NCBI RefSeq assembly: GCF_015711605.1
Contig: NZ_JABTEZ010000003.1
Span: 372,001 to 436,000 of the forward strand
DNA from: Planomonospora sp. ID67723
GTDB lineage: Bacteria; Actinomycetota; Actinomycetes; Streptosporangiales; Streptosporangiaceae
Direction of reading: 5' to 3'
Length of the DNA: 64,000 nt
The notes under the pieces are model-generated. The model worked only from the letters and a program-made list of their open reading frames with translations. It searched no databases and was not told where the DNA came from. Numbering within the stretch: position 1 is the first letter of the stretch; each line of letters begins with the position of its first letter. The position numbers and the translations under genes were made by a program. Positions 6,528-62,779 of the stretch are shown here, in pieces.

Positions 6528-6559
6528 CCCGGCCCCCGTCTCCGGTGCCCCGTTCCACA

Positions 6560-6575
6560 GGCTCCGCGCGGAGCC
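6560..6575. terminator. Possible terminator palindrome between convergent genes
   Basis: GGCTCCGCGCGGAGCC is a perfect 16-base palindrome in the 94-base gap between the converging stops at 6527 and 6622. It is short for a strong hairpin. Confidence 0.4.
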
Positions 6576-6621
6576 CCGCAGGGACGCCCGGTCGCGGGTC
6601 GCCGGTTCCGGAGGGGCCCGG

Positions 6622-46480: not shown

Positions 46481-46510
46481 CCGGCCGGGCGGGATCCTCC
46501 GCCCGGCCGG
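46481..46510 (+). terminator. Terminator of the Nif3/RNase H operon
   Basis: Perfect 12-base arms CCGGCCGGGCGG / CCGCCCGGCCGG with a six-base loop, 40 bases past the stop and 33 bases before rnpB. Confidence 0.7.
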
Positions 46511-46543
46511 AACCCGCCCGGGAGCCGTTAAGCTTGGAAACAC

Positions 46544-46946
46544 GGCGGACGAGTCGGCCGGGCGGCCGCGTCGGGTCTTTTCGAAGGCCCGCCGAGGAAG
46601 GTCCGGGCTCCACAGGGCAGGGTGGTCGGTAACGCCGACCCGGGGTGACCCGCGGGACAGTGCCACAGAGAGCAGACCGCCCCTCCTCGCGGAGGGGTAA
46701 GGGTGAAAGGGTGGTGTAAGAGACCACCAGCGCCCACGGTGACGTGGGCGGCTAGGTAAACCCCACCCGGAGCAAGGTCAAGAAGGGACGCCCTCCGGGG
46801 CGTCCCGCGCGCGGCGTTCGAGGGCGGCCCGCCCGAGTCGCGCGGGTAGACCGCTTGAGGCCGCCGGCAACGGCGGTCCTAGATGGATGGTCGCCCCTTC
46901 GCGCAAGCGAAGGACAGAACCCGGCCTATAGGCCGACTCGTCCGCC
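46544..46946 (+). ncRNA. rnpB: RNase P RNA, bacterial class A
   Basis: About 403 bases with all hallmark segments of class A RNase P RNA. The ends pair as P1 (GGCGGACGAGTCGGCC at 46544-46559 with GGCCGACTCGTCCGCC at 46931-46946). Inside lie GAGGAAGGTCCGGGCTCCAC, GACAGTGCCACAGAGAGCAG, AGGGTGAAAGGGTGG, GTAAACCCCACCCGGAGCAA, TAGATGGATGG and the 3' ACAGAACCCGG. It makes the catalytic RNA that trims tRNA 5' leaders. Its last 32 bases recur at 49805-49836 and appear to be an attachment site, so the present 3' end may have been supplied by an integrated element. Confidence 0.97.
46915..46946 (+). repeat. attL: rnpB 3'-end copy 1 of direct repeat
   Basis: The 32 bases from CAGAACCCGG through the rnpB P1 strand. 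The same segment recurs at 49805-49836 with two differences (TATA here, CACA there). This is the copy inside functional rnpB. Confidence 0.75.
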
Positions 46947-47002
46947 TTCTCCGCCCCTGACCTGCGGCGGAGGCTGTGCCCGGCATGATCGAAGCGCTCA
47001 GA

Positions 47003-47020
47003 GGGCACAATGGGGGCACA
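47003..47020 (+). repeat. Integrase arm-type repeat, copy 1
   Basis: GGGCACA twice, starts 11 bases apart (one helical turn), between attL and the stop codon of the integrase fragment. Confidence 0.6.
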
Positions 47021-47021
47021 T

Positions 47022-47513
47022 TCAGGTGAGCCCGGATGCGGCGGCGAAGGCGTCGTCCAGTGCCGTCCGCGCCCGCCCGGAGGCCTCCGGGACCAGATGC
47101 CCGTACAGGTCCACGGTCGTGGTGATGGACTCGTGCCCGAGCCACCGGGACACCTCGGAGATCGGCACACCCTCGGCGAGCGCCGTACTGGCGAAGGTGT
47201 GCCGCAGATCGTGGAACGTCATGTCCACCGGCACCCCGGCCGCGAGGATCGCGGGCTTGAGGATGTCGGCGTTGAAGTAGTCGCGGCGGATCAGGTTGCC
47301 GCGCGTCGTGCGGAGCAGCACGTCCTCGGGCTTGTGCCGGTCGACGTGCCCGGTCAGCGCGTCGGCGAGGACGGCCGGCATCGGGACGTCGCGGACGGAG
47401 GCCTTCGTCTTCGGCGGGGCCAGCACCGGACGGCGATCGATCACCACGACCTGCCGGTCCACCGTCAGCATGCCCTCGGCGAAGTCGATCCGGTCGACGG
47501 CCAGGCCGAAGGC
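47022..47513 (-). pseudogene. 5'-truncated tyrosine recombinase (integrase)
   Basis: The C-terminal 163 residues of an actinophage/ICE-type integrase. Present are RQVVVIDRRPVLAPPKTKAS, the FHDLRHTFAS box (HxxR), LGHESITTTVDLYGHL (second His and the nucleophile Tyr) and a normal C-terminus. The first catalytic Arg box and everything before it are missing: homology stops at 'AFGLAVDRIDF' near 47513, where the sequence switches to an XRE regulator on the opposite strand. The fragment therefore cannot recombine. It reads toward rnpB, as expected for an element integrated there. Confidence 0.85.
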
Positions 47514-47792
47514 ATTGACGACGGCATGGCCGCCAAGATCCGTAACGTGATGGTGCTGTACCGGCCGCTCCGGCAGGTCGAGGGCGTCGAGATCCGGCTT
47601 CACCGCACGGTGTTCTACAACTCGATCTACCGCAGGGACGATCAGCTTCTCGTCAACACCCACGTGTACGGCCAGCCCGCCGCCAACGCGCCGGTCTTCC
47701 ATCTGCGCAAGGTGGCCGGCGGGGACATGGTCTCCACCTACACCGGCAGTTTCGAAGCCGTCTGGGCCGACGCCGTCCCCATAGACTCCTGA
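47514..47792 (+). pseudogene. 5'-truncated XRE-family regulator (C-terminal domain only)
   Basis: The C-terminal 92 residues of an actinobacterial XRE/HTH regulator of the DUF5919 type (KIRNVMVLYRPLRQVEGVEIRLHRTVFYNSIY..., WADAVPID). The HTH and the first two-thirds are lost at the junction with the integrase fragment (about 47513/47514). The remaining codons are still G/C-ending and free of stops, so the truncation is fairly recent or translation from ATG 47526 persists. Its stop is two bases before the NUDIX start, showing the original regulator-NUDIX pairing. Confidence 0.7.
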
Positions 47793-47794
47793 TC

Positions 47795-48271
47795 ATGGCC
47801 CGCCGCATCGACTTCTACGACGATCCCGCCGCGCCCGCGCCCAACAGCCTGGTCCCGTCGGTCAACGTCGTGGTCACCAACGACGCGGGCGAGATCCTGA
47901 TGATCCGCCGCAGCGACAATGACAACTGGGCGGTGCCCGGCGGTGCGATCGACCTGGGCGAGTCCCTGCCCGAGGCGGCGATCCGGGAGACGCTGGAGGA
48001 GACCGGCGTCCGGTGCGAGATCACCGGGATCGTCGGCACCTACACCGATCCCAAGCACGTCATCCTCTACACCTCCAACGGCGAGGCCCGGCAGGAGTTC
48101 TCCATCGTGCTCACGGGCCGCGCCGTCGAGGGCGAGCCGACGCCGAGCGATGAGTCCCGCGAAGTGCGCTGGGTGTCCCGCGGGGAGGTCGAGACGCTGA
48201 CGATGGACCGGTCAATGAGTTTGAGGGTCGGCTATTTCCTGGCCGGCCGGGCGGTGCCGCACATCGGGTGA
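47795..48271 (+). CDS. NUDIX hydrolase
   Basis: A 158-residue pyrophosphohydrolase with a complete Nudix box: GAIDLGESLPEAAIRETLEETGV (Gly, the REtLEE metal ligands and final Gly-Val all present). It would cleave a nucleoside diphosphate derivative. The ATG at 47795 directly follows the stop of the truncated regulator, with which it was presumably co-transcribed; its current promoter is uncertain. A decayed copy of its last 15 or so codons lies at 49868-49919. Confidence 0.9.
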   Translation: MARRIDFYDDPAAPAPNSLVPSVNVVVTNDAGEILMIRRSDNDNWAVPGGAIDLGESLPEAAIRETLEETGVRCEITGIVGTYTDPKHVILYTSNGEARQEFSIVLTGRAVEGEPTPSDESREVRWVSRGEVETLTMDRSMSLRVGYFLAGRAVPHIG

Positions 48272-48329
48272 GATCAACGCTGGTCGAGGATGTGCCGCCT
48301 CTTCGGAAGCCAGTGAACAAGGTTGCCGC

Positions 48330-48479
48330 TCATGCAGCTTCCGCGAACTCGCACATCAGCCCTACGCGCCTCTTCTGTCTCGTGGGATCCACGCCCGCCA
48401 TGGTGGAGTTGTCCCAGAGACCTCCAGGGGCGAGGAACCGAGCCGCGTGTTCGGTCGCGTGCAGCTCGTCCAGGTACAT
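48330..48479 (-). CDS. Possible small gene or gene remnant, unrecognised
   Basis: Minus-strand frame of 49 residues (MYLDELHATEHAARFLAPGGLW...GLMCEFAEAA) with about 70% G/C in third positions. That is lower than neighbouring core genes but above chance for this frame. No ribosome site. It could be the tail of a lost gene (the open frame extends to 48596). No homology recognised. It lies in the 262-base gap between the NUDIX gene and the next ORF, which otherwise shows nothing. Confidence 0.25.
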   Translation of the reverse strand: MYLDELHATEHAARFLAPGGLWDNSTMAGVDPTRQKRRVGLMCEFAEAA

Positions 48480-48533
48480 CTGATCTTTCAGGTCACTGGA
48501 GCTGTTTTGAGCCGGGGCGGGGATGATGGGCTG

Positions 48534-48947
48534 GTGGATCTTTCCAGTCTGGAGCGTCAGCGTCTGGTGGCGGTCACCGCGGCTCTGTTCACCCATGGAA
48601 TCGATGCCCCCGAGCTACTGCACGTGTGGCTCCATCTGGAGTCGGTGACCGTCGTGGTTCGTGTCACCGCTGACTGGACACTCCACATCACGCCTGACGA
48701 GCCGGGGGAGAGCTACACGATGCCTGAGCTCGGCAGTCGTGTTGATGTCGTTCCTACTCCTGCCGATGCCCCCTTTGTGCGACATGTCGGAGAGCGGCTT
48801 GTGCGCGTGGTCGAGGGGTTCGACATCGACCAGCCCGCTCAACGTGTGCAGGCGCGGTTCGTCTTTGAGACGGGAAGTGTGGTCGCGTGGAGCTTCGAGG
48901 GTGGCCTCCACCTGGTCGGCGGTGAGTCGTCGGGGCTGTTGGAGTAG
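48534..48947 (+). CDS. Orphan protein with atypical codon use
   Basis: A 137-residue protein, acidic, predicted alpha/beta (LVAVTAALFTHG, LLHVWLHLESVTVVVRVTADWTLHI, FVFETGSVVAWSFEGG). I recognise no family. Many codons end in T or A (GAT, CTT, AGT, CGT, GCT), unlike the core genes around it, which suggests recent transfer. GTG 48534 is chosen for GGGATGATGGG upstream; the open frame reaches back to 48447. It is cargo of the rnpB-associated element. Confidence 0.6.
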   Translation: MDLSSLERQRLVAVTAALFTHGIDAPELLHVWLHLESVTVVVRVTADWTLHITPDEPGESYTMPELGSRVDVVPTPADAPFVRHVGERLVRVVEGFDIDQPAQRVQARFVFETGSVVAWSFEGGLHLVGGESSGLLE

Positions 48948-48991
48948 CCGCTCACAGTTGAGATCGTGTGTCATTGCTGGAAAACCCCGCA

Positions 48992-49009
48992 GGGCACATC
49001 CAGGGCACA
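48992..49009 (+). repeat. Integrase arm-type repeat, copy 2
   Basis: GGGCACA twice with starts 11 bases apart, framed by near-identical AAACCCCG on both sides (48970s and 49020s). It lies in a 311-base gene-free stretch (48948-49258) that holds only this repeat and the hairpin at 49063-49098. Confidence 0.6.
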
Positions 49010-49062
49010 TGATCGGGAGAAACCCCGAGGATCAGTGGAAGATGCCGAGAGGTGAAATGCGC

Positions 49063-49098
49063 CCTGACCAGGCCTGCCGTACGTAGGACCTGGTCAGG
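49063..49098. terminator. Hairpin inside the element
   Basis: CCTGACCAGG (49063-49072) and CCTGGTCAGG (49089-49098) form a perfect ten-base stem with a 16-base loop. It may be a terminator or a recombination-related dyad. Confidence 0.45.
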
Positions 49099-49258
49099 AC
49101 AATGCCGTTCGCGCTACATCGGCAAGCGTGGGAAGCCAGGTCGGGAGCGTGCTCGGCAGGCTGAGGGCGGAACGCGGCTCGACGGAAAACAGCTCGATCC
49201 CGCCCGCGACAGACGGGTACCTTCCTGATCGGAGCAGGCCGATCCCGCAGGAGGGGTG

Positions 49259-49636
49259 TTGAGGCGTAGGAGTCCACAAGAGAAGAAGCGCCTGAACTAT
49301 GCCAAGGACCGCCGCAACGCCTACGGGGAGAACGACAAGAGCTCCCGCAAGAACATCCGGCGCAACAAACGCGCTCCTCACCGGGCGAACCGGCACCGCG
49401 TGAACCAGGTCCTCGAAGCGGCCGTCGGCGCCGTCGACGAGGGCGCCGAAGAGGAGGTCGAGCGGCGGCTGCTGACGAAGCGGCCGAAGTCCTGGGAGAA
49501 GTCCCCGGACGCGCCTCTGGGGGAGATCGTTCAGTACACCCTGCGGCGACGGATGACGTTGGGGACCGGTGATCCGGGGCGGGACGCCGCCCGTCTGGAA
49601 CGCGTCCGTCGGCGGACTCGGCAGCCGGCCGACTGA
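49259..49636 (+). CDS. Small very basic conserved protein
   Basis: A 125-residue protein rich in Lys/Arg: RRRSPQEKKRLNYAKDRRNAYGENDKSSRKNIRRNKR, then an acidic helix (DEGAEEEVERRL) and a basic C-terminus. Similar short proteins occur scattered in actinomycete genomes, but I know no function; charge suggests nucleic-acid binding. AGGAGG at 49249-49254 leaves four bases to TTG 49259 and only one to GTG 49256, so TTG is preferred. It sits inside the rnpB-flanking element. Confidence 0.65.
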   Translation: MRRRSPQEKKRLNYAKDRRNAYGENDKSSRKNIRRNKRAPHRANRHRVNQVLEAAVGAVDEGAEEEVERRLLTKRPKSWEKSPDAPLGEIVQYTLRRRMTLGTGDPGRDAARLERVRRRTRQPAD

Positions 49637-49685
49637 GCGTGCCCCACTCAGGCACCGCTGCTCGCCTCTCAAGAGACCCTGCGGA

Positions 49686-49703
49686 GGGCACATCGGGGGC
49701 ACA
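49686..49703 (+). repeat. Integrase arm-type repeat, copy 3
   Basis: GGGCACA twice with starts 11 bases apart, about 100 bases before attR, mirroring the position of copy 1 next to attL. The gene-free stretch 49637-50018 holds this repeat, attR and a NUDIX remnant. Confidence 0.6.
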
Positions 49704-49804
49704 CCGCATCCGCAGGCGGTGGCAGACAACGTCAAGCGACGAAAGCGTTCCTGTAGCTCTACAGCTTGATCACCAGCCCCGTACAGGTCACGGGAAGGCT
49801 GAAT

Positions 49805-49836
49805 CAGAACCCGGCCCACAGGCCGACTCGTCCGCC
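49805..49836 (+). repeat. attR: rnpB 3'-end copy 2 of direct repeat
   Basis: 30 of 32 bases match the rnpB 3' end at 46915-46946, and the next 30 or so bases are also partly similar. No other part of rnpB is present, so this is a displaced 3' end, not a second gene. Confidence 0.75.
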
Positions 49837-49867
49837 CCACCCGCCCCGAACCGCGGCGGAGCTGCGC

Positions 49868-49919
49868 GCCTGCGGATCGGCCACTCCCTTGCCGGCCGGG
49901 CGGTGCCGCACGCCGGACA
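49868..49919 (+). pseudogene. Remnant of a NUDIX gene 3' end
   Basis: Reads LRIGHSLAGRAVPHAG, nearly the C-terminus of the NUDIX protein at 47795 (LRVGYFLAGRAVPHIG), and shares an uninterrupted 21-base match (49891-49911 with 48242-48262). No Nudix box precedes it. It lies just outside attR. Confidence 0.6.
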
Positions 49920-50018
49920 GCTCATCCCGGCGCGGATGAGCGCCATCACCGGCCACGCACATGCTCCGGCGACGAGGCATCATGATCAGAGAAGGCGCCG
50001 GCCGACGCGGGAGAACCG

Positions 50019-50855
50019 ATGCGGGACAGATCGCTCAAGGCGCTGAGCAAGTGTGTGGACCGCGTCGTCGACACTGAAGACCCCTCCCACGTTCTCGACC
50101 CGGTGATGCTCGAACACGCCCGCCGCCTAGTCGCCTCCTACGACGACGAGCGGCCCGACACCGAGATCCTGTCAGCTGTGGGCCTGTTCCACTGGCTCCG
50201 GTTCACCGCGCGCGGCGGGGAGGATCCCGAGGAAGCAGCGATCGCGTTCTGGGCGTTCGCCCGCTGCATGATCTACGACGACGAACCTCCACCTCGAAAG
50301 CTGATCCCTCATGTCCTGCCGGAGGCCGTGAACCTGGCCACCGGCCTGTTGCAGCGGGCAGCCGAATCTGATGATCTGCACCTGACCGAGCAAGCCGTGG
50401 ACGCATGGCAGCGCATCGAAACCGCCACCCCCGCCGACCACCCCGATCAGGCCGTGATGTGGGCCAACCTCAGGGTCGCGTTGCTGCTGCGGTTCGGGCA
50501 GACCGAGGATCCCGCGGACCTGGAGGAGGCGATCCCGGTATGGGAGCAGGCGCTGGAGGCCCTTCCCGCCGATCACCCCGACAGAGCGGATCTGCTGTCG
50601 CAGCTCGGTTGCGCGTTGCTGACACGGTTCGAGCGGGCTGAGACGCCCCAGGATCTGGAGAAAGCCATCGCCGCGTGGAGGCAGGCGGTTCAGATCACCC
50701 CCGCCGGCCGCCCCGATCGAGCGGTGCACCTGTTCAACCTCAGTACCGGGCTGCGGATACGGGCCGATCTGACCGGAACGCCTGCAGATCGGGAGGAGGC
50801 GGCCACCGTCGAGGAACAGGCGGCACGGGCCAGGAGAGAGAACGATCTCCAGTGA
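50019..50855 (+). CDS. TPR-like repeat protein (CHAT-protein-like repeats, no CHAT domain)
   Basis: A 278-residue helical protein. From about residue 105 it has repeats of about 43 residues (LRVALLLRFGQTEDPADLEEAIPVWEQALEALPADHPDRADLLSQLG; then CALLTRFERAETPQDLEKAIAAWRQAV). These are diagnostic of the TPR arrays of actinobacterial CHAT-peptidase proteins, which usually have ten or more repeats and a C-terminal protease. Here the protein ends after three repeats and a charged tail. The N-terminal 100 residues match the usual start of such proteins. ATG 50019 has GGGAG five bases upstream. It may be a free-standing adaptor or a shortened relic. Confidence 0.75.
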   Translation: MRDRSLKALSKCVDRVVDTEDPSHVLDPVMLEHARRLVASYDDERPDTEILSAVGLFHWLRFTARGGEDPEEAAIAFWAFARCMIYDDEPPPRKLIPHVLPEAVNLATGLLQRAAESDDLHLTEQAVDAWQRIETATPADHPDQAVMWANLRVALLLRFGQTEDPADLEEAIPVWEQALEALPADHPDRADLLSQLGCALLTRFERAETPQDLEKAIAAWRQAVQITPAGRPDRAVHLFNLSTGLRIRADLTGTPADREEAATVEEQAARARRENDLQ

Positions 50856-50937
50856 TGCCCGTGACACGGGGATTCAGCGCAGACCCTCGCGTCGCCGGCT
50901 TCATGCGGTCGGACGGCCGTCTGCCTCGGGGAGTCGG

Positions 50938-51312
50938 CTATCTCCGCATGAACGGAACTTCGTAGGAGGGCGGCTGCCCGTTCATCAGGTCGGTCAGCTC
51001 GGCCTCGTCGAGATCGAGAACGAGGGCGCTGCCCGCCTGCTGCGGCTCCCAGCCACGTTTCAGGGCCGTCCGTACGGTCTCCGCCACGAGCGCCGGTCGT
51101 ACGGCCATGGCGCGCTCCCCGGACCAGGCGTCCGGCCGGGAGCAGGGAAGCGATACCAGAAGCACGCGGCCCGGCCGCTCGGCCGCCTCCACCGCGAAGG
51201 TCAGCGGCCCCCAGCTGTTCCCCTGGCAGTAGGTGGGCCTGCGGCGGATCCGCCAGCGGTAGGTGGCGCCGTCGACCGTGATGAGCCGTGAGCCCTTTTT
51301 GGGGATCGCCAT
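50938..51312 (-). CDS. Conserved hypothetical actinobacterial protein
   Basis: A 124-residue protein (MAIPKKGSRLITVDGATYRWRIRRRPTYCQ...) of a type I have seen in actinomycetes without known function. Predicted beta-rich first half and a helical DLDEAELTDLMNG end. ATG 51312 has GGAGG seven bases upstream. It stands alone; the 213 bases to the next gene show nothing recognisable. Confidence 0.7.
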   Translation of the reverse strand: MAIPKKGSRLITVDGATYRWRIRRRPTYCQGNSWGPLTFAVEAAERPGRVLLVSLPCSRPDAWSGERAMAVRPALVAETVRTALKRGWEPQQAGSALVLDLDEAELTDLMNGQPPSYEVPFMRR

Positions 51313-51525
51313 GAAGCGGCCTCCGTTTTCGTCCCGTCACCTGTTCCGCGCGAGCCGGGAACCAGCGAGAAGCGACATGAGACGCCCGCAAGGGTAACCC
51401 CCGCCCGAGGACGTGATCGAGCCGTTTTCGCGGCAGGCGACCGGGACCGGCGCCGGAGGTCATCCCGGTCTGCGGGGCCATGGCGGACGAGGGCATGAGA
51501 CGGCCGACGGGCGTGGACCCCGCCG

Positions 51526-51993
51526 TCATGCGGGGCTGATCGTCGCGGCGATCGTGGCGCCGAGTTCCCAGCAGGCCGCCAGGTCGTCCTTGCCCGGCGC
51601 GCCCGTCACCGTCACCGGCCGGTGGACCGGCTCCCAGTCGAGCCCGGAGGCGATCGACTCCACCGCGCGGACGGCGCCGGCCGTGTTGTCGTTGCCGTGC
51701 ACGTACAGCGCGTACGGCAGACGCCGGGTCTCCTCCAGGCAGGGATAGTAGACCGTGTCGAAGAAGTGCTTGAGCGCTCCGCTCATGTAGCCGATGTTGA
51801 CCGGGGTGCCCAGGACGATCCCGTCGGCCTCGAACACGTCGACGGCGGTGGCGCGCAGCGCCGCTCGGGCGACCACCTCCACCCCTTCGACCTCGTCGGT
51901 GGTGGCGCCCCGCCGTACCGCCTCGAAGAGTTCCCGCAGCGCAGGAGAGGCGGTGTGGTGCACGATCAGCAGACGCCGGACATCTCGCGACAC
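51526..51993 (-). CDS. Flavodoxin-like / NAD(P)H-dependent FMN reductase family protein
   Basis: A 155-residue flavodoxin-fold protein: N-terminal LLIVHHTASPALRELFEAV (phosphate-loop region), GIVLGTPVNIGYMSGALKHFFDTVYY (FMN-ring contact with the family's GSPxYxGxxSxxxKxFxD pattern), LYVHGND. It would carry FMN and transfer electrons or reduce quinones. GTG 51993 has GAGAGG nine bases upstream. Divergent from the AraC-type gene. Confidence 0.8.
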   Translation of the reverse strand: MSRDVRRLLIVHHTASPALRELFEAVRRGATTDEVEGVEVVARAALRATAVDVFEADGIVLGTPVNIGYMSGALKHFFDTVYYPCLEETRRLPYALYVHGNDNTAGAVRAVESIASGLDWEPVHRPVTVTGAPGKDDLAACWELGATIAATISPA

Positions 51994-52170
51994 GGTGCCG
52001 ATCCTCTCATGTCCGTCCGTCCCGGATCAGGTGATCAGGTGAGCACGCAGGCCTCCCCGGCGGACCCGATGTCCTTGAACGTGGAGCAGGCCGGGGCAGA
52101 GCAGACGCGGAGTGAGGGGGGACGCCGGCGGCGCTGGGCAACTCCGGTGCGACGTGGCACGATTTCGCAG

Positions 52171-52620
52171 GTGACCAGCACTCCTGCCGCGGCGCAGCAC
52201 CTGCGCGACCTCGCGCGGCTGCGCCGCGTCCGCGACCGGATCGACCGGGAGTACGCGCAGCCGCTGGACGTCGAGGCGCTCGCCCGCGGCGCGCACATGT
52301 CGGCCGGGCACCTCAGCCGCGAGTTCCGGCGCGCCTACGGAGAGTCGCCGTACGCCTATCTGATGACGCGGCGCATCGAGCGCGCGATGGCGCTGCTGCG
52401 TCGTGGCGACCTCAGCGTCACCGAGGTCTGTTTCGCGGTCGGCTGCTCGTCGCTGGGCAGCTTCAGCACCCGCTTCACCGACCTGGTCGGTGTGCCGCCC
52501 AGCACCTACCGCCGCCACGCGGCACGCGCGGCGGCGGGGATGCCGTCATGCGTGGCGAAACGGGTGACCAGACCGGTCAGGAATCGAGAAGCGCCGGTCA
52601 CCGAGCCGCACCTAGCGTGA
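52171..52620 (+). CDS. Short AraC-family transcriptional regulator
   Basis: A 149-residue protein consisting of little more than the AraC DNA-binding domain: two HTH motifs (LDVEALARGAHMSAGHLSREFRRAYGESP; LSVTEVCFAVGCSSLGSFSTRFTDLVGVPPSTYRRH). No sensor domain, so activity is set by expression level or a partner. GTG 52171 has no clear ribosome site. It is five bases upstream of the VOC gene, its likely co-transcribed partner. Confidence 0.85.
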   Translation: MTSTPAAAQHLRDLARLRRVRDRIDREYAQPLDVEALARGAHMSAGHLSREFRRAYGESPYAYLMTRRIERAMALLRRGDLSVTEVCFAVGCSSLGSFSTRFTDLVGVPPSTYRRHAARAAAGMPSCVAKRVTRPVRNREAPVTEPHLA

Positions 52621-52625
52621 CTGCC

Positions 52626-53036
52626 ATGAACATCACCATCCACGCCAGCTTCCTCCCGCACGACGACCCGGACGCCTCCCTGGCCTTCTACCGCGACATC
52701 CTCGGTTTCGAGGTCCGCAACGACGTCGGATACGACGGGATGCGCTGGATGACGGTCGGCCCCGCCGACCAACCCGGTACGTCCATCGTCCTGGAGCCGC
52801 CGGCCGCCGACCCCGGCATCACCGACGACGAGCGCCGCACCATCGTCGAGATGATGGCCAAGGGCACTTATGCCGGCGTCCTCCTGGCCACCGCCGACCT
52901 CGACGGCGCCTTCGAGCGGGTGCAGGCCGGCGGCGCCGAGGTCGTCCAGGAGCCGGCCGAGCAGCCGTACGGCGTCCGCGACTTCGCCGTCCGCGATCCC
53001 GCGGGCAACCTGATCCGCGTCCAGGAACTGCGCTGA
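52626..53036 (+). CDS. VOC-superfamily protein (glyoxalase/bleomycin-resistance fold)
   Basis: A 136-residue two-repeat VOC protein: ASFLPHDDPDASLAFYRDILGFEV in the first half and YGVRDFAVRDPAGNLIRVQEL at the end. A metal-binding Glu is likely near the C-terminus, and a first-half His (H7 or H12) is available. It is of the glyoxalase-like type that often follows an AraC regulator, as here. Substrate unknown. Confidence 0.85.
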   Translation: MNITIHASFLPHDDPDASLAFYRDILGFEVRNDVGYDGMRWMTVGPADQPGTSIVLEPPAADPGITDDERRTIVEMMAKGTYAGVLLATADLDGAFERVQAGGAEVVQEPAEQPYGVRDFAVRDPAGNLIRVQELR

Positions 53037-53039
53037 GCC

Positions 53040-53160
53040 GTCCGGCCGTCGCGGTCACGACCTGCGAGACGGCGCCGTACCCGGTGCCGCCGCCCTTCGG
53101 CTGGGGCGGCGAGGCGCTGGACGGCCACGCCGTACTGCTGGTTCCGCGCCAACGGAGGGT
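53040..53160 (+). other. Possible decayed coding remnant
   Basis: One frame of the 276-base gap after the VOC gene reads CETAPYPVPPPFGWGG then EALDGHAVLLVPRQRR with G/C-ending codons. It has no start or stop context. It may be a gene tail left by rearrangement; nothing recognised. Confidence 0.2.
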
Positions 53161-53312
53161 CCGCCACCGGTCGTCGGCTGCCGGCATGCTTGCGCCGTTC
53201 GTGTCAGGCCGGGCCGGTCAGATCGAGCCGGGCGACGCCGACTCCGGTCGCCGTGCGGTGACCTGCGCATTCACCGCGCGGCGACCGTCCGGTCCCGGCC
53301 CGGTAGCTCCCC

Positions 53313-54833
53313 TCAGGAACCGCAGACCGTGCCCTCGGCGGGGACCTTCCCGTCGATCAGGTAGGCGTCGGCGACCTTCGTCGTGCAGGTGTTGACCCCG
53401 TAGGCGCCGTGGCCCTCGCCCTTGGACGTCACCAGCACCGCCGTCTTGAGCTGCCTGGTCAGCTTCGGCCCCCACGCGTACGGCGTGGCCGGGTCACTGG
53501 TGGTGGCGACCACCACGATCGGGGCCGAGCCGGTGGCGTCGACCTTCTTGGCCGCGTTGCTGCCGGCGAACGGCCAGGCCGCGCAGAGGCTGCCCAGGCC
53601 GGTGCCGCCGAACATCGGGGAGATTCTCCGTGCCGCGGCCTCGGTCTTGGCCTGTTCTGCGGCGCTGGGCCGCTCAGCGGTGTCGGCGCAGCTGATGGCC
53701 GGGAAGCTGGTCATCAGGGTGGAGTAGGTGCCGTCGGGCTTGCGGCCGGTGTAGCTGTCGGACAGGCCCAGCAGGAGCCGGCCGTCGCCCTTGAGCGCCA
53801 GGCCCAGCGCCTGCTCCAGCACCGGCCAGGCTTGCTGGGCGTACAGCGCCGCCCCGATGCCGGTGACCGCCAGCCCCTGGGTGAGCTCCCTCCGGCCGAC
53901 CTTCAGCGGCTTGGCGTCCAGGCGCTTCCACAGTGCCCGGACCTTGTTACCGGCCGACTTGCGGTCCGCGCCGAGCACGCACTTGCCGGGGCCCTTGGCG
54001 GCGCAGTCGGCGAGGAACGCCTCATACGACCGCTGGAACCCCCTCATCTGGTCGAGGGTGCGCTGCCGGAAGGAGAGCGTCGGATCCAGCGGGGCGTCCA
54101 GCAGGAAGCGACCCACCTTCTCGGGGAACATCGTGGCGTAGATCGCGCCCAGATGCGTGCCGTACGACATGCCGAAGTAGTTGAGCCTGCCCTCGCCCAG
54201 CGCCTCACGCAGCCGTTCCAGGTCCTTGGCGGAGCTGATGGTGCCCACATGCGGCAGGATCTCACCGGAGGTCTCCTGACAGGCCTGGACGAACTCCGCG
54301 GTGACCCGCTTCAGCTGCGCCCGCTCTGCCGAGGTGTCCGGGGTGGAGTCGGCGGCGTTGTACTTCTCCGTCTCTGCGGCGCTGCCGCACCGGACGCCGG
54401 AACTGCGTTCCACTCCGCGCGGGTCGAAGGAGACCAGGTCATAGCGGGTGTTCAGCGCGGTGTAGGCCGGAGCGGCCAGGGGCAGGATGTCCACGCCGGA
54501 GCCACCGGGTCCGCCGAAGTTGAACACCAGCGAGCCCAGTCGCCTGCCGGAACCGGCGGCCTTGATGCGGATCAACGCCAGGTCGATGGTCTCGCCGTCG
54601 GGATCGGCATAGTCGAGGGGGACGGTGAGCGTGCCGCACTCGGTGCCCGCGGGGAGCTTCTGCCCCTCGGCGGGCCGCATGTCGGCGCATGACCCCCAGG
54701 TGATCGTTCCCTGTCCGGTGGCGCCCGAGCCGGTGCTCGCTGCGGAGGCCGGGCCACCGGCGGTGACCAGGGCCAGGGGCAGGGCGGCGGCGATCGTTGT
54801 GATCTTCATGTGACGCGCGGAAGTTCTTCTCAT
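53313..54833 (-). CDS. Secreted alpha/beta-hydrolase peptidase (S33, tripeptidyl-aminopeptidase-like)
   Basis: A 506-residue exported serine peptidase of the Streptomyces SlpD/SlpE/Tap type. A signal peptide ends near ASAA. The hydrolase core has NFGGPGGSG (oxyanion), GMSYGTHLG (nucleophile Ser), TSDPATPY (acid Asp) and GEGHGAYG (His), then the C-terminal Cys-containing cap. It would remove tripeptides or single residues from peptides outside the cell. ATG 54833 and the in-frame ATG 54809 (MKITTIA) are both plausible, the latter giving a tidier signal peptide. Confidence 0.9.
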   Translation of the reverse strand: MRRTSARHMKITTIAAALPLALVTAGGPASAASTGSGATGQGTITWGSCADMRPAEGQKLPAGTECGTLTVPLDYADPDGETIDLALIRIKAAGSGRRLGSLVFNFGGPGGSGVDILPLAAPAYTALNTRYDLVSFDPRGVERSSGVRCGSAAETEKYNAADSTPDTSAERAQLKRVTAEFVQACQETSGEILPHVGTISSAKDLERLREALGEGRLNYFGMSYGTHLGAIYATMFPEKVGRFLLDAPLDPTLSFRQRTLDQMRGFQRSYEAFLADCAAKGPGKCVLGADRKSAGNKVRALWKRLDAKPLKVGRRELTQGLAVTGIGAALYAQQAWPVLEQALGLALKGDGRLLLGLSDSYTGRKPDGTYSTLMTSFPAISCADTAERPSAAEQAKTEAAARRISPMFGGTGLGSLCAAWPFAGSNAAKKVDATGSAPIVVVATTSDPATPYAWGPKLTRQLKTAVLVTSKGEGHGAYGVNTCTTKVADAYLIDGKVPAEGTVCGS

Positions 54834-55072: not shown

Positions 55073-55654
55073 TCAGCCCGCGGGATCGAGGAACAGGGCG
55101 CTGAGACGGGGAAGGCGCCGGCGGGTCTCGTGCTGGTCGTTCACGTCCCAGTTCTCACCCACCGGCTTGCCGGGCCGGTCCATGACCGCCACCACGGCCG
55201 TCACCGCGTCATCGAACGAATCCGACTCTCCCTGGATGCGTTCGTACGCCCACCTCGTCGCGTAGGAGGCGTCCTCGCAGCCGATCCAGGCGTCTCCGGT
55301 ACGGCTCATCCGCACCACGACGGGAAGGCCGGCGAGGGAGTCGGGGTCGGCGACGGCCCGGGTGAACGTCGTACGGCCCAGCAGCATGAGCCCGGTGCGG
55401 AAGTCCATGAAGCCGTCGTCTCCGCAACCGCCCTCGATGAGCTGCGCGGCATTCCACAGCGGCCACCGGTAGGCGGAGTCCTGCAACCGGATGTGAATCC
55501 GCTCGAACGCGATGATCTCGGCAGGTTCCAGCTCCAAGAGCAGGCCGGTCAGGATTTCCACCATCGGATCATCGGGCGGGTTCCGGTCGCCGGCTCGGCC
55601 GCCGGCGGCCTTGCGCGCCCGCTCGATGATGTCCCACCAGGTGTCGACGTCCAT
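55073..55654 (-). CDS. DUF4240 domain protein
   Basis: A 193-residue protein that opens with MDVDTWWDIIERAR, the DUF4240 signature, followed by ELEPAEIIAFERIHIRL and LWNAAQLIEGGCGDDGFMDFRTGLMLLG, which complete the domain. Members resemble immunity-type or WGR-linked proteins of unknown function in actinobacteria. ATG 55654 has AGGG eight bases upstream. Confidence 0.85.
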   Translation of the reverse strand: MDVDTWWDIIERARKAAGGRAGDRNPPDDPMVEILTGLLLELEPAEIIAFERIHIRLQDSAYRWPLWNAAQLIEGGCGDDGFMDFRTGLMLLGRTTFTRAVADPDSLAGLPVVVRMSRTGDAWIGCEDASYATRWAYERIQGESDSFDDAVTAVVAVMDRPGKPVGENWDVNDQHETRRRLPRLSALFLDPAG

Positions 55655-55851
55655 TCCGGTCACCCTAGCGACCGAGGTTCTCCCACCGGACAACGGCGGA
55701 CTCCGCAGCATGGTGACCGTCCCACGGGGGCGAGCGCCACTTCGCCGGCAGGGTCGAGGCGTGGGCCGGACCCCGCTGCACCCGTGTGGCCAGGCCCGGC
55801 GGCGTGGCGCAGGCCTCCGGAGTCACCGTGATCCATCCCGGGGCCGGCGTG

Positions 55852-56232
55852 TCACGGATGGGCCCGCGCCTGCCGGCGGCGGAACTCGTCGAACGGCGTG
55901 CGGTCGAACACGAACCGGTTGTAGACGATCTTCCCGTCGCGGACCGTGACGCACTCGGCCGCCGGTGCGCTCCTGGCCGGGATCGTTTCGGCGTCGTACA
56001 TGAGCACGGCCGTGCTGTCATCCCCGAACGCGGCGATCATCTCCGCTCTGATGAGGAACCGCTCGGCGAAGGGCGCGAGGAAGTCCCGGTACGCCCGGAC
56101 GCCGTCGAGCCGTCCCGCTGGGGCGTCGCACACGACGTCGTCGGCGATGTAACCCATCGCCAGGTCGAGGTCCTTGTCGGTCGTCCACGCGCGGTGGTGG
56201 GCCAGCGCGATCTGCAATGCTGGGCTGGTCAT
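55852..56232 (-). CDS. SnoaL/NTF2-like protein
   Basis: A 126-residue single-domain protein with the cone-shaped NTF2-like fold of ketosteroid isomerases and SnoaL cyclases: LALAHHRAWTTDKDLDLAMGYIADDVVCDAPAGRLDGVRAYRDFL, then DAETIPA and VRDGKIVYNRFVFD. ATG 56232 has AGGAGA three bases upstream. It is divergent from an ECF sigma gene whose product also ends in a SnoaL-like domain, 58 bases away. It may be the sigma factor's target or ligand partner. Confidence 0.85.
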   Translation of the reverse strand: MTSPALQIALAHHRAWTTDKDLDLAMGYIADDVVCDAPAGRLDGVRAYRDFLAPFAERFLIRAEMIAAFGDDSTAVLMYDAETIPARSAPAAECVTVRDGKIVYNRFVFDRTPFDEFRRRQARAHP

Positions 56233-58596: not shown

Positions 58597-60066
58597 ATGA
58601 GCAGTGGATGCTGCGGCCCGGTGGCCGCTCCCGCCGAGCAGAACGCGCAGGCCGTACAGGTCACGCGCAGCCCGCAGACCGCGGTCCGGCCGCAGGACTC
58701 CGGCTCGCGCCCGGACGCCCTGCCCGTCGTGGTGATCGGTGCCGGGCCGGTCGGCCTGGCCGCCGCCGCGCACCTGGCCGCCCGCGGCCTGGACTTCCTG
58801 CTGCTGGAGGCCGGAGCCCAGGCGGGCGCCTCGATCGCGCAGTGGGGGCACGTACGGACCTTCAGCCCGTGGAAGTACAACCTCGACGCCGCCGCGCGCC
58901 GCCTGCTGGAGGCCGGCGGCTGGACCGCGCCGGATGAGGACTGGCTGCCCACGGGCGCCGAGCTCATCGAGGGCTATCTCGCCCCGCTGGCGGCGCACCC
59001 GGCCGTCGCCCCGCACCTGCGCCTGAACGCGAGGGTCGCCGGCATCAGCCGCGCCGGGTTCGACCGGGTCCGCACCACCGGCCGCGAGGCCGCGCCGTTC
59101 CTGATCCGCCTGGCCGACGGCGAGGAGATCTCCGCCCGCGCCGTCGTGGACGCCTCCGGCACCTGGACGACGCCGAACGTGCTGGGCGCCTCCGGCCTGC
59201 CGGCCCACGGCGAGCACGAGGCCGCCGCGTTCGTCGACCACGCCCTGCCCGACGTGCTGGGCGCCGACCGGGAGACCTACGCAGGCAGGCACACCCTGGT
59301 CGTCGGCGCCGGCCACTCCGCGGCCACCACCCTGCTCGCCCTGGCCCGCCTGGCCGAAGAGGCGCCCGACACGCGCATCACCTGGGCGGTCCGTGCCGGG
59401 AACGCGACCCGTACCTACGGCGGCGGCGCGGCCGACGCCCTTCCCGCCCGGGGAGCACTCGGCGCCGGCCTGCGCGAGCTGGTCGAAACCGGTCGCATCA
59501 CCCTGCTGACCGGGTTCTTCACCCACACCGTCGTCACCGACGCCGAGACGGTGACGGTGATCAGCCGTGACCCGTCGGGGAACGAGCAGAAGGTCACCGT
59601 CGACCGGATCGTGGCCGCCACCGGATACCGGCCCGACCACTCGATCTCCAGCGAGCTGCGTCTGGACCTGGACGCGATCCTGGGCTCCACCCGGGCGCTG
59701 GCCCCGCTGATCGACCCCAACCACCACTCCTGTGGCACGGTGCCCGCGCACGGGGCCGACGAGCTGGCCCATCCGGAAGCCGGTTACTACGCCGTCGGGG
59801 TCAAGAGCTACGGCCGTGCCCCGACCTTCCTGATGGCCACCGGATACGAGCAGGTCCGCTCCGTCGTCGCCGCTCTCTCGGGCGACTGGGAGGCGGCCCG
59901 AGACGTCCGGCTCGACCTGCCCGAGACCGGGGTCTGCTCCTCCAGCCTGGCCGCGGCCCAGGAGGCCCGCGTCGGGCTGGCCACCGGCATCAGCGGCGGC
60001 CTGCTGGCCGCCCCGCTTCCCCTCGCCGGAGTCGGAGCGGCCGGGACCGGCGGCTGCTGCGGTTGA
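58597..60066 (+). CDS. FAD-dependent oxidoreductase with a CC pair at each terminus
   Basis: A 489-residue flavoprotein: FAD Rossmann motif VVVIGAGPVGLAAAAHL, active-site region SIAQWGHVRTFSPWKYN, NADPH motif VVGAGHSAATTLLAL and ATGYRPD. N-terminal MSSGCCGPV (C5, C6) and the C-terminal GGCCG (C487, C488) are additions outside the flavin fold, resembling mobile dithiol tails that bind or relay metals. The setting (ArsR, MFS, second flavoprotein) suggests oxidation or reduction of an arsenic or other metalloid compound. ATG 58597 has AGGAGG seven bases upstream. It overlaps the MFS start. Confidence 0.85.
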   Translation: MSSGCCGPVAAPAEQNAQAVQVTRSPQTAVRPQDSGSRPDALPVVVIGAGPVGLAAAAHLAARGLDFLLLEAGAQAGASIAQWGHVRTFSPWKYNLDAAARRLLEAGGWTAPDEDWLPTGAELIEGYLAPLAAHPAVAPHLRLNARVAGISRAGFDRVRTTGREAAPFLIRLADGEEISARAVVDASGTWTTPNVLGASGLPAHGEHEAAAFVDHALPDVLGADRETYAGRHTLVVGAGHSAATTLLALARLAEEAPDTRITWAVRAGNATRTYGGGAADALPARGALGAGLRELVETGRITLLTGFFTHTVVTDAETVTVISRDPSGNEQKVTVDRIVAATGYRPDHSISSELRLDLDAILGSTRALAPLIDPNHHSCGTVPAHGADELAHPEAGYYAVGVKSYGRAPTFLMATGYEQVRSVVAALSGDWEAARDVRLDLPETGVCSSSLAAAQEARVGLATGISGGLLAAPLPLAGVGAAGTGGCCG

Positions 60067-61349
60067 GCGACCGCGTGCGTAAGCCGATCCCATCCGCCGC
60101 CCCGGTTCCTGCCGCGCCCTCCGGCGGAAGCGGCGGAGACGGCAGGAGCCGGGACCGGTACGGCGGGCGGCTGGTCGCGGCGCTGGCGATCACCCAGACC
60201 GCCGGGTACGGCGTGCTGTACTACGCCTTCGCCGTCCTGCTCACTCCCATGCAGCGCGACCTGCACGCCGGCACCGGCCAGATCGCCGGGGCGCTGACGG
60301 TCTCGGTGCTGACCACGGCGCTGGCCGCGCCGCTGGTCGGCCGCCTGCTGGACGCCCGCGGCGGCCGGAGCCCGATGACCGCCGGGTCCGCGCTCGGTGC
60401 GGTGGCGGTGCTGGCCTGGTCGCAGGTCACCACCCTGGTCCAGTTGTACGCGGTGCTGGCCGTCGTCGGCCTGGCGGCGTCCATGGTGCTGTACGAGGCG
60501 GCTTTCGCCGTCGTCATCGCCGTCTCCACCCCCGCGCGCCGGCCCCGGGCACTGCTGGCGATCACCATCGTGGCGGGCTTCGCCTCCAGCGTGTTCCTGC
60601 CGCTGACCGGGTTCCTGGTCGGAGAGTTCGGCTGGCGCACGGCCCTGACGCTCCTCGGCGCGGCCTACGGTCTGCTGGCCGTCCCGTTGCACGCGCTGAC
60701 CCTGCCCGGTCGCGACCGCGTTCGCGGCCGGGCCGGTCCGGCGCCGGGGCCGCACCGGTCCGAGCTCGTGCGCACGGCCCTGCGCGGGCGGGCTTTCTGG
60801 CTGCTGGCCGCCGCCTTCCTGGCCCAGACCGGTGCGGTCGCCGTGATGGGGGTACTCCTGGTCGCCTACCTGATCGCCCTCGGCCATCCGCCGCTGCTGG
60901 CCGCCACCGTGGCCGGGCTGCTGGGCGTTCTGTCGGTCACCGGCCGCCTGGTCAGCACCGCGCTGTCGACTCGCTGGCCCGTCGCCCTGGTCACCGCCGC
61001 GATCTTCACCCTGGAGGGCGCCGCGGCCGTCCTGATGCCGCTGATCGGCCGCAGCACCGCCGGCGCGGTCGTGGCGGTGACGCTGTTCGGGCTCGGTTTC
61101 GGGGTGGCGACCATCGCCCGGCCCGCCCTGCTGGCCGAGCGGTACGGCACCAGCGCCTACGGCAGCATCAGCGGCGCTCTGGCCCTGCCGGTCATGGCGG
61201 CCAAGGCCGGCGCCCCCCTGCTCGCCGCGACGATGGTCCCGATCGTCGGGTACACCACCGTGATGGCCGGGGTGGCGTTCGCCTGCGGTCTGGCCGCGGT
61301 CGCGCTGACGGCCTACTACCGCGTACCATTTAGACCAGCGTCGAAGTAA
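60063..61349 (+). CDS. MFS transporter of the metalloid island
   Basis: A 428-residue, 12-span major-facilitator protein. Recognisable parts are LAITQTAGYGVLYYAFAVLL, the loop 2-3 motif LVGRLLDARGGRSPM (GxLaDrxGrr-like), and a central cytoplasmic loop (GRDRVRGRAGPAPGPHRSE). The probable TTG start overlaps the flavoprotein stop by four bases (TTGA), so expression is coupled; GTG 60075 is an alternative. It likely exports the product of the flavoproteins. It does not obviously match Acr3, ArsB or ArsJ, and no GAPDH partner of ArsJ is present. Confidence 0.88.
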   Translation: MSDRVRKPIPSAAPVPAAPSGGSGGDGRSRDRYGGRLVAALAITQTAGYGVLYYAFAVLLTPMQRDLHAGTGQIAGALTVSVLTTALAAPLVGRLLDARGGRSPMTAGSALGAVAVLAWSQVTTLVQLYAVLAVVGLAASMVLYEAAFAVVIAVSTPARRPRALLAITIVAGFASSVFLPLTGFLVGEFGWRTALTLLGAAYGLLAVPLHALTLPGRDRVRGRAGPAPGPHRSELVRTALRGRAFWLLAAAFLAQTGAVAVMGVLLVAYLIALGHPPLLAATVAGLLGVLSVTGRLVSTALSTRWPVALVTAAIFTLEGAAAVLMPLIGRSTAGAVVAVTLFGLGFGVATIARPALLAERYGTSAYGSISGALALPVMAAKAGAPLLAATMVPIVGYTTVMAGVAFACGLAAVALTAYYRVPFRPASK

Positions 61350-61360
61350 GGAGTCTTCCC

Positions 61361-61708
61361 ATGGCCGCCCCCACCGCCACCTGCTGTGCCCCGATCGCCC
61401 GCGAGCCGCTGGCCGAGACCGAGGCCGCCGAGCTGGCGGTGCTGCTCAAAGCGGTCGCCGACCCGGTCCGGCTGCGCCTGCTGTCGATGATCGGCTCCCA
61501 CGCCGGCGGAGAGGCCTGCGTGTGCGACCTGACCGACGCCTTCGACCTGACCGCCCCGACCATCTCCCACCACCTCAAGGTGCTCCGGACGGCCGGGCTG
61601 ATCGACTGCGAGCGGCGCGGCACCTGGGTGTACTACTGGATCGTCCCGGCCGCCGTGGCCAGGCTGGGGGAGTTGTTCTCCCCGCTGGCCGAACCCGCCG
61701 CCGTCTGA
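61361..61708 (+). CDS. arsR: ArsR-family metalloregulator with N-terminal CC pair
   Basis: A 115-residue winged-helix repressor: LLKAVADPVRLRLLSMI, ACVCDLTDAFDLTAPTISHHLKVLRTAGLIDCERRGTWVYYW. Cys8-Cys9 (TCCAP) with Cys53/Cys55 (CVC) matches the As(III) site of Corynebacterium glutamicum ArsR, where an N-terminal CC pair and Cys55 are the ligands. It would release DNA on binding As(III)/Sb(III). ATG 61361 has AAGGAG seven bases upstream. It lies 11 bases after the MFS gene and 3 bases before the ArsO-like gene, inside one operon. Confidence 0.9.
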   Translation: MAAPTATCCAPIAREPLAETEAAELAVLLKAVADPVRLRLLSMIGSHAGGEACVCDLTDAFDLTAPTISHHLKVLRTAGLIDCERRGTWVYYWIVPAAVARLGELFSPLAEPAAV

Positions 61709-61711
61709 GCC

Positions 61712-62779
61712 GTGCCCGCCACCGCTGCCCCGCACCTGGTCGATGTACTGGTCATCGGCGCAGGTCAGGCTGGCCTGGCAGCCGGCTATCACCTGCGTCG
61801 CGCCGGGGCCGGTTTCGTCGTCCTGGACGCCCAGGAGGAGCCGGGCGGGGCCTGGCGGCATGCCTGGCCGTCGCTGCGCCTGTTCTCCCCGGCCCAGTAC
61901 AGTTCGCTGCCGGGCCGGATGATGCCCGTCCCCGAGGGCGGCGGCTATCCGAGCGCGGCCGAGGCGGTCGCCTACCTGGCCGACTACGAGCAGCGCTACG
62001 AGCTGCCGGTCATCCGGCCGGTGCGCGTGCGGGCCGTCCGCGACGGCGGCGAACGCCTGGTCGTGGAGACCGACGCCGGAACCTGGCACGCCCGTATCGT
62101 GATCAGCGCCACCGGCACCTGGTGGCGGCCGTACGTGCCGCACTGTCCCGGCATCGGCGACTTCGGCGGCCGCCAGCTGCACACCGCCACCTACCCGGGC
62201 CCGGAACCCTTCCACGGCATGAGCGCGGTGGTCGTGGGCGGCGGCAACTCCGCCGCGCAGATCCTGGCCGAGCTCTCCACCGTGGCCGCCACCACCTGGA
62301 CCACCCTGCGCCCGCCCCGGCTGCTGCCCGACGAGATCGACGGCCGGGCGCTGTTCGACCTGGCCACCCGCCGCGCCCGCTCCGCCGACGCGGTGAGCAT
62401 CTCCGATCTGGGCGACATCGTCGCCACGGCGGCCGTGCGCGAGGCCCGCGACCGGGGCGTTCTCAAGGCCGACCCGATGTTCACCCGCCTCACTCCGACC
62501 GGTGTGGCCTGGGCCGACGGAACCGAACTGGCATGTGACGCGATCATCTGGTGCACCGGGTTCCGGCCCGCCCTCGGACACCTGGCCCCGCTGAGGCTCC
62601 GCGGCTCCGACGGGGTGATCCCGACCGACGGCACCCGCGCGCTCGGCGAACCCCGCCTGCACCTGCTCGGCTACGGCGACTGGACCGGGCCCGCCTCCGC
62701 GACGCTGATCGGCGCCGGTCGCAGCGCCCGCGCGGCCGTCGCCGAGATCGCGCGGCAGCTCACCCCGTACAGGACCTGA
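61712..62779 (+). CDS. ArsO-like flavin-dependent monooxygenase
   Basis: A 355-residue FAD/NADPH enzyme: VLVIGAGQAGLAAGYHL, EPGGAWRHAWPSLRLFSPAQYSSLPG, SATGTWWRP, VVGGGNSAAQI, WCTGFRP and final GDWTGPASATLIGAGRSAR. The length and order match the flavoproteins (ArsO) found in actinobacterial ars operons next to ArsR. It probably oxidises a trivalent arsenical or makes a reactive flavin product that helps export; activity of this family is poorly settled. GTG 61712 lies directly after the ArsR stop. Last gene of the operon. Confidence 0.85.
   Translation: MPATAAPHLVDVLVIGAGQAGLAAGYHLRRAGAGFVVLDAQEEPGGAWRHAWPSLRLFSPAQYSSLPGRMMPVPEGGGYPSAAEAVAYLADYEQRYELPVIRPVRVRAVRDGGERLVVETDAGTWHARIVISATGTWWRPYVPHCPGIGDFGGRQLHTATYPGPEPFHGMSAVVVGGGNSAAQILAELSTVAATTWTTLRPPRLLPDEIDGRALFDLATRRARSADAVSISDLGDIVATAAVREARDRGVLKADPMFTRLTPTGVAWADGTELACDAIIWCTGFRPALGHLAPLRLRGSDGVIPTDGTRALGEPRLHLLGYGDWTGPASATLIGAGRSARAAVAEIARQLTPYRT

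Follow-up and report, generated by a model that had tools for sequence, protein, structure and literature searches.

In the 64,000-nt stretch of Planomonospora sp. ID67723 DNA analysed here (the window, with positions counted from its first base), the segment 46947–49836 directly behind rnpB, the gene for the RNase P RNA, is most probably a decayed actinomycete integrative and conjugative element (AICE), belonging to a clade in which the integrase uses the rnpB 3′ end as its recombination site; we put the probability of this reading at about 0.93. A preliminary description, made from the letters of the window, had proposed the remnant of an integrative element at this position. That proposal is borne out, because relatives have near-full-length integrases, AICE modules, pairs of attachment (att) sites and tandem copies at the same place, while its assignment of the two repeat variants to element and host, and its expectation of a clean empty site, were not upheld. 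The features that carry the main finding are the following:

46550–46946, plus strand: rnpB, class A RNase P RNA (Rfam RF00010, 291.6 bits, full model).
46915–46946, plus strand: attL core, the rnpB 3′ end in its TATA variant; the identity between copy pairs falls past the final rnpB base.
49805–49836, plus strand: attR core, a repeat of the rnpB end in its CACA variant.
47022–47513, minus strand, reading toward rnpB: 3′ fragment of an integrase gene, without the catalytic Arg217 (PF00589, 55.5 bits in the open reading frame (ORF) 47022–47702).
47003–47020, plus strand: left GGGCACA-N4-GGGCACA pair, probable arm-type sites, at +57/+68 after the core.
49686–49703, plus strand: right GGGCACA-N4-GGGCACA pair, probable arm-type sites, at −119/−108 before the core.
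48534–49836, plus strand: AICE right-end module, with ORFs in 48447–48947 and 49256–49636, recognised by homology to stretches L032 and L035 from relatives.

The recurrence of the last 32 bases of rnpB 2.9 kb downstream with two differences, as first described, was confirmed by comparison of the repeats (2 mismatches, start-to-start distance 2890) and by scanning the two strands at up to three mismatches, which found the cores at 46915 and 49805 and no others in the window (0.00 expected, 100 shuffles). Beyond the repeat, on its 3′ side, a weaker similarity follows (83% over 48 nt in total), and ARAGORN detected no tRNA or tmRNA gene in the 64-kb window. The predicted host-side attachment site is the final 27–32 bases of rnpB. 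Its boundary was examined by comparing the proximal with the distal copy in 35 pairs, which came from 26 genomes including the window's; eight pairs were taken from an earlier comparison, and the others from a scan downstream of each rnpB with its own final 27 bases and up to five mismatches, so that the high agreement within those 27 bases reflects selection. The two copies agree in 31/35 pairs at the final rnpB base and in 19/35 at the next, followed by 4–22 of 35 over the next 30 bases (with bumps of 21 at +10 and 22 at +18), and 5′ of the 27 bases the agreement is 27–28/35 for three bases and then 18, 12 and 4–17. As identity drops straight after the final rnpB base, the element is predicted to rebuild rnpB up to its last base. 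An ordinary duplication or a misassembly next to an unrelated integrase has nothing to recommend it beyond bare possibility, and is made extremely improbable by the same type of pair with the same boundary in 26 genomes, the window's among them, and by the integrase fragments that adjoin second and third copies too.

The tyrosine-integrase fragment pointing at rnpB had likewise been noticed before, and its identity is confirmed by the PF00589 domain in the minus-strand ORF. It is 88.9% identical to residues 220–381 of the 398-aa integrase (Int) of P. venezuelensis, and the alignable part begins at residue 219–220 of this full-length relative; it is therefore a fragment from which Arg217 is gone, a residue that is invariant across four aligned integrases and which we take to be the first catalytic arginine of tyrosine recombinases. 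The window copy thus lacks the complete site-specific recombinase that an autonomous AICE should have, and no domain of a replication initiator or FtsK/TraB transfer protein was found in the seven ORFs of 47.0–50.9 kb (Pfam, E up to 0.1). It does have the hallmarks of an AICE remnant: part of an integrase, cargo and a pair of direct repeats remain, and they are related to their counterparts in an intact AICE inserted at this site. Judged from sequence only, it also has the attL and attR around a segment without its own recombinase that define a cis-mobilizable element (CIME).

An rnpB query of 60 genomes, the window's own included, gave matches in 55, several with an additional match to the final ~30 bases only, and 20 stretches were fetched for comparison. 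The left end of the segment (46500–47513) is 92% identical to contig L031 of P. venezuelensis CECT 3303 (G001), from the same genus, where a full-length 398-aa Int starts 33 bases past rnpB. The right end (48534–49836) is 84.5% identical to positions 5608–6911 of P. venezuelensis contig L032, with the match ending on the final base of the repeat, and from 49131 it is 86% identical to L035. In the L031 element there are genes for Int (PF00589), for a Xis-like HTH_17 protein of 58 aa, for RepSA (PF20199, 560 bits), a DUF2637 protein and FtsK/SpoIIIE (87.8 bits), and for an SCO3933-family protein and regulators. Integration, replication and transfer genes occur together, with int beside the att site, and by this gene set the element is classified as an AICE, which presumably spans both contigs. 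In Planomonospora sp. ID82291 (G016) an AICE of the same type lies on a single contig, with the second core copy on one side and the third on the other. Its Int and that of P. venezuelensis share 99.5% identity, and the element DNA 95.9% over 7.9 kb, compared with 86% over 1.2 kb on the rnpB side, which points to recent transfer. RepSA and FtsK modules are also found behind rnpB in G082 and G098, as are full-length open integrases (61–70%) in G082, G098 and G249.

Pairs of GGGCACA boxes occur three times in the window, at 47003, 48992 and 49686, all within the element, with none expected (100 shuffles), and the box starts in each pair are 11 bases apart. The pair at +57/+68 after the core is shared by the window, P. 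venezuelensis, P. parontospora and two Herbidospora, and several other relatives have a single box, or shifted or altered boxes, after the core. The distal pair is found at −119/−108 in the window and at −120/−109 in P. venezuelensis and ID82291, with the second box only in two Herbidospora. In 88 genomes of the family, the window excluded, GGGCACA started at +54 to +60 in 15/25 genomes with a class 1 integrase (the class that includes the P. venezuelensis Int), in 0/10 with another integrase and in 6/53 without an integrase match; at the control position +201 to +207 it was found in none of the three groups. Position and pairing suggest that the boxes are probably arm-type sites of the integrase. 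The third pair (48992–49009, plus strand) lies inside the right end and is also present in P. venezuelensis (L032 6067); its spacing to the terminal pair is nearly conserved, with 694 bases in the window versus 693 in P. venezuelensis. The ends of elements carrying the two other integrase classes, G016A and G006, are without the GGGCACA pair; by eye, another repeated box, CTGTTCCG, was spotted at the G016A-type ends (L034, L036), where it perhaps represents the arm sites of that class. As a possible integrase site, the motif TGACCTG close to the core was rejected as too weak (13/25 class 1, 3/10 other-integrase and 12/53 no-integrase loci).

A 28-base pattern of the rnpB end (up to three mismatches) was found in 195/297 genomes of the family, with zero matches throughout for a reversed-pattern control, and 50 of these 195, including the window's, contained at least two copies, which makes rnpB an insertion hotspot in the family. 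Extra copies measured behind rnpB were located 0.8–20 kb downstream on the same strand, and some others on different contigs. An integrase or integrase fragment pointing at rnpB was present within 1.3 kb in 35 of the 88 genomes, a sample in which close relatives and genomes with extra copies are over-represented; of 20 genomes drawn from those without an extra copy, seven had an integrase or fragment at rnpB. Integrase fragments also adjoin second or third copies (for example in G082, G118, G145, G160, G209 and G262), and elements therefore appear to accrete at rnpB. The locus of G118 (L119) is a tandem array with four rnpB-end copies in 10.2 kb, rnpB's own counted, the third of which has an integrase fragment. 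Two extra partial matches downstream of rnpB in G036 (L050, 5765–5897 and 6917–7047) are to the middle of rnpB and are not end copies.

Class 1 integrases (61–100% to P. venezuelensis) form one branch with support 1.00 in a tree of 15 sequences. A pattern scan of genome contigs for Int gave 11 loci; all five full-length Ints of at least 81%, two of which were the query rows, are at rnpB, three of them 33 bases from an rnpB-end copy, and a 94% fragment (L060) adjoins rnpB. Four Int loci at 34–39% had no rnpB end in the fetched DNA, one of these lying on a contig of only 4.5 kb. The 86% fragment of Planobispora takensis (L059), without rnpB in its 20 kb, was dismissed as an exception, as it is placed ~12.3 kb downstream of rnpB if its contig is taken to be G134:C10 (rnpB 55526–55922, fragment 68266–68475, pointing at rnpB); ORFs near this fragment look ArsR-like and glyoxalase-like by eye. 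The element with the class G016A integrase also encodes a primase and a terminase small subunit, and that with the class G006 integrase a major head protein. Three integrase classes use the rnpB site, two of them on prophage-like elements. Other families make use of the site as well: a search of 296 genomes of the class returned 26 loci (L151–L176), 22 from other families, with integrases at 33–42%, and in L155 and L168, both from other families, the integrase is beside an rnpB confirmed by Rfam, the remaining loci having been checked by a letter pattern that could miss diverged rnpB ends. Four of the 26 loci have a tRNA gene nearby, and G059, of another family, has an integrase fragment at rnpB. 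Viral contigs gave 13 pattern matches, none of which was confirmed, and plasmid and phage records gave matches only below 60% identity. The only phage record with an rnpB-like end, MT836823.1 (L146), labelled Bacteriophage sp., was discarded, since it contains an entire class A rnpB and resembles a piece of bacterial chromosome.

The remaining features of the segment and its downstream flank are:

47508–47519, no strand: deletion scar at which the integrase gene is fused to the mid-region of a regulator-like gene, located by homology breakpoints.
47514–47792, plus strand: 3′ part of the regulator-like gene, with a longer homolog in G068 (L086).
47795–48271, plus strand: intact NUDIX hydrolase ORF of 158 aa, cargo (PF00293, 85.4 bits).
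48330–48596, minus strand: gene fragment with the C-terminal end only of DUF6000 (PF19463, 33.3 bits, profile 134–181 of 185).
49837–51434, no strand: probable older second remnant, with an AICE-left-end-like flank, a NUDIX tail, an ORF with tetratricopeptide repeats (TPR) and an AICE-homologous ORF.

Homology to L031 stops at 47513 and homology to the L086 gene starts at 47507. Since the parent sequences look alike for a few bases at the scar, we read it as a putative short-homology deletion. The L086 homolog itself gave only weak N-terminal helix-turn-helix matches, under the Pfam cut-offs. In L081 (G134) an integrase fragment at +562 after rnpB is broken a few bases from the window scar (47508 versus 47513) and joined to other DNA, which may reflect either two independent deletions at one spot or shared history. 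A NUDIX ORF is also located between the two rnpB-end copies of G249 (L122).

These data would fit a circular element whose attP carried a copy of the final ~27–32 bases of rnpB, flanked by the paired GGGCACA boxes, to which the integrase would bind. Recombination would have kept rnpB whole, with its terminal strand at least partly supplied by the element, and would have placed the second core at the far end. A later deletion may then have fused the integrase gene, at about codon 220, to the middle of the regulator-like gene, with loss of the replication and transfer genes; the NUDIX gene would have been spared, as would the right end and the two attachment sites, boxes included.

The four bases that separate the variants were also read in the rnpB genes of relatives, for which 94 loci were examined and four dropped, as their final 28 bases do not start with ACCCGG; two genomes are present twice. 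TACA was found in 82/90 (with an altered base just before it in six), TATA in 8/90 and CACA in none, and both window variants are one change away from the common TACA. According to the preliminary description, TATA had come in with the element, the CACA copy was the displaced native rnpB end and everything after 49836 was native flank. The general logic of 3′-end integration favours this order, and the distal copy does mark the right end of the element, but the lack of CACA in the 90 rnpB genes counted, and the nature and distribution of the flank (below), make it improbable. As CACA was seen among the matches listed in second copies only (G000, G074, G119 and G149), this variant appears to have arisen as a displaced copy decayed. 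The core is likely the near-palindrome CCCGGCC-TAYA-GGCCGAC, and the two differences, at bases 13 and 15 of 32, fall within GGCC-TAYA-GGCC, where strand exchange is expected; because the variable bases are inside the expected crossover, they cannot tell which side is native, and the Herbidospora copy pairs are compatible with both orders of variant origin.

The sequence after 49836 (CCACCCGCCCC-GAACC-GCGGCGGA) resembles the left-end flank of Planomonospora AICEs. It is followed by the tail of a NUDIX gene (49871–49916), which is 83% identical to 48222–48267 and 91–93% to short stretches elsewhere in G068 and P. venezuelensis, by the TPR ORF (50019–50855), and by a minus-strand ORF (50938–51312), homologs of which occur within the P. 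venezuelensis element and, in Herbidospora, just past the distal copy. The region from 49837 to about 51434 is thus probably an older remnant in tandem. A first flank query (49837–53400, 150 family genomes) was dominated by conserved genes past 52 kb, with two candidates scored per genome; a query with 49837–50936, likewise with two candidates per genome, matched in 26/297 genomes, its own included. Among the matches listed in the other 25 of 296 genomes, none had such DNA joined to rnpB, contrary to the expectation that element-free strains would join rnpB straight to sequence like that from 49837 onward, and the nearest to rnpB was a 70% match to the TPR gene ~14 kb downstream of it in G006. 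Some relatives, such as G230 (L090), share the flank up to 47022 without a detectable integrase; since the GGGCACA pair is retained, these loci look like element stubs and not empty sites. Copy spacings (0.8–20 kb) and contents differ between relatives, which do not share one common 2.9-kb segment, and no relative examined combines an empty site, a TATA end and a flank like that from 46947 onward, either of which would have spoken against a remnant.

A block of conserved genes (homologs of L047_4 and L038_7) begins ~26 kb after rnpB here (C3:444766 onward) and is found downstream also in P. venezuelensis, ID82291 and the G034 stretch. Between 49837 and this block no stretch was found to be collinear with relatives all the way from rnpB; the hydrolase gene at 53313–54809 has an 86% homolog ahead of the same block in ID82291, and 51519–52014 has a 92% match ~7 kb downstream of rnpB in G110. 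Further along, at 58621–62779, the window contains a four-gene cluster of two FAD/NAD-dependent oxidoreductases, a major facilitator superfamily transporter and an ArsR-family regulator, as judged by Pfam domains, which is possibly arsenic-related.

Several observations weigh against a decayed AICE of an rnpB-specific clade. The two ends of the P. venezuelensis element sit on two contigs that are unjoined in the assembly, and the middle 1 kb of the segment (47514–48533) is without a DNA-level match to the AICEs compared. The cores differ at 2/32 bases, and the search with 49837–50936 found no relative with an empty site plus the same flank. No integrase match was present within 1.3 kb of rnpB in 53/88 family genomes, of which six retain the first box, and the two Herbidospora Ints are not directly beside rnpB, being located 1.3 and 5.9 kb downstream of it, before the distal copy.

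Whether the decayed AICE has kept some mobility is a separate matter. If another AICE of this clade inserted at rnpB, it could mobilise the remnant in the manner of a CIME, by excising it or carrying it along together with the NUDIX gene. The box pairs are intact at both ends, in positions as in elements with full-length Ints, and stacked elements are seen at rnpB in several genomes; against this stand the two core mismatches, in the palindrome where the overlap is likely, the lack of any excised or transferred copy seen, and the window's own genome, which shows only the integrase fragment at E ≤ 1e-50. On balance we regard such mobility as rather unlikely.

The intact relative shares its Int, Xis-like, RepSA and FtsK/TraB-like genes with pSAM2-type AICEs (Ghinet et al. 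2011, PMC3218068), which likewise target RNA-gene 3′ ends, are bounded by direct repeats and carry NUDIX cargo. In contrast, their site is a tRNA gene and the one here is rnpB, and rep, tra and an entire int are missing from the window copy; rnpB and RNase P are absent from the main text of that study. According to the same text, AICEs often carry NUDIX genes and Pif of pSAM2 is a NUDIX protein, by analogy with which the NUDIX ORF of the window is possibly Pif-like and might have an immunity role. The DAICEs and remnants of Streptomyces (2022, PMC9513070) similarly combine a partial integrase, cargo and two direct repeats, with several elements accreted at one site, but use tRNA or protein-gene sites, and rnpB is absent from the main text. 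A putative phage-inducible chromosomal island (PICI) is described as splitting rnpB in Clostridium novyi sensu lato (PMC8473940), and rnpB as a site is therefore not new. This is likewise an integrative element at rnpB, but a clostridial phage satellite and not an AICE, likened by site and not by sequence. Those portions of the literature examined (including PMC3218068, PMC9513070, PMC12884075 and PMC9569102, and studies that used rnpB in other ways) contain no report of an AICE, or of any other element of actinomycetes, at rnpB, although surveys of the TIGER type may already contain such elements.

We tentatively entertain a wider proposal, with odds clearly short of even, in which rnpB is a dedicated and long-standing actinomycete hotspot where at least three integrase classes, on AICEs and prophage-like elements, converged on the 27-base core up to the final rnpB base, the 3′ strand of the P1 helix has been repeatedly replaced, the remnant is recombination-competent in trans and its NUDIX protein excludes related elements. 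With the decayed AICE described here, an essential ribozyme gene joins the sites used by actinomycete conjugative elements, with the clear rule that the repeat ends at the final base of the gene. The rnpB-type integrase clade, with its predicted attP and attB, could become an integration tool for Streptosporangiaceae. Finally, the 3′ ends of rnpB in the family may reflect the history of mobile elements as well as that of the species, a point of relevance where rnpB serves as a phylogenetic marker.

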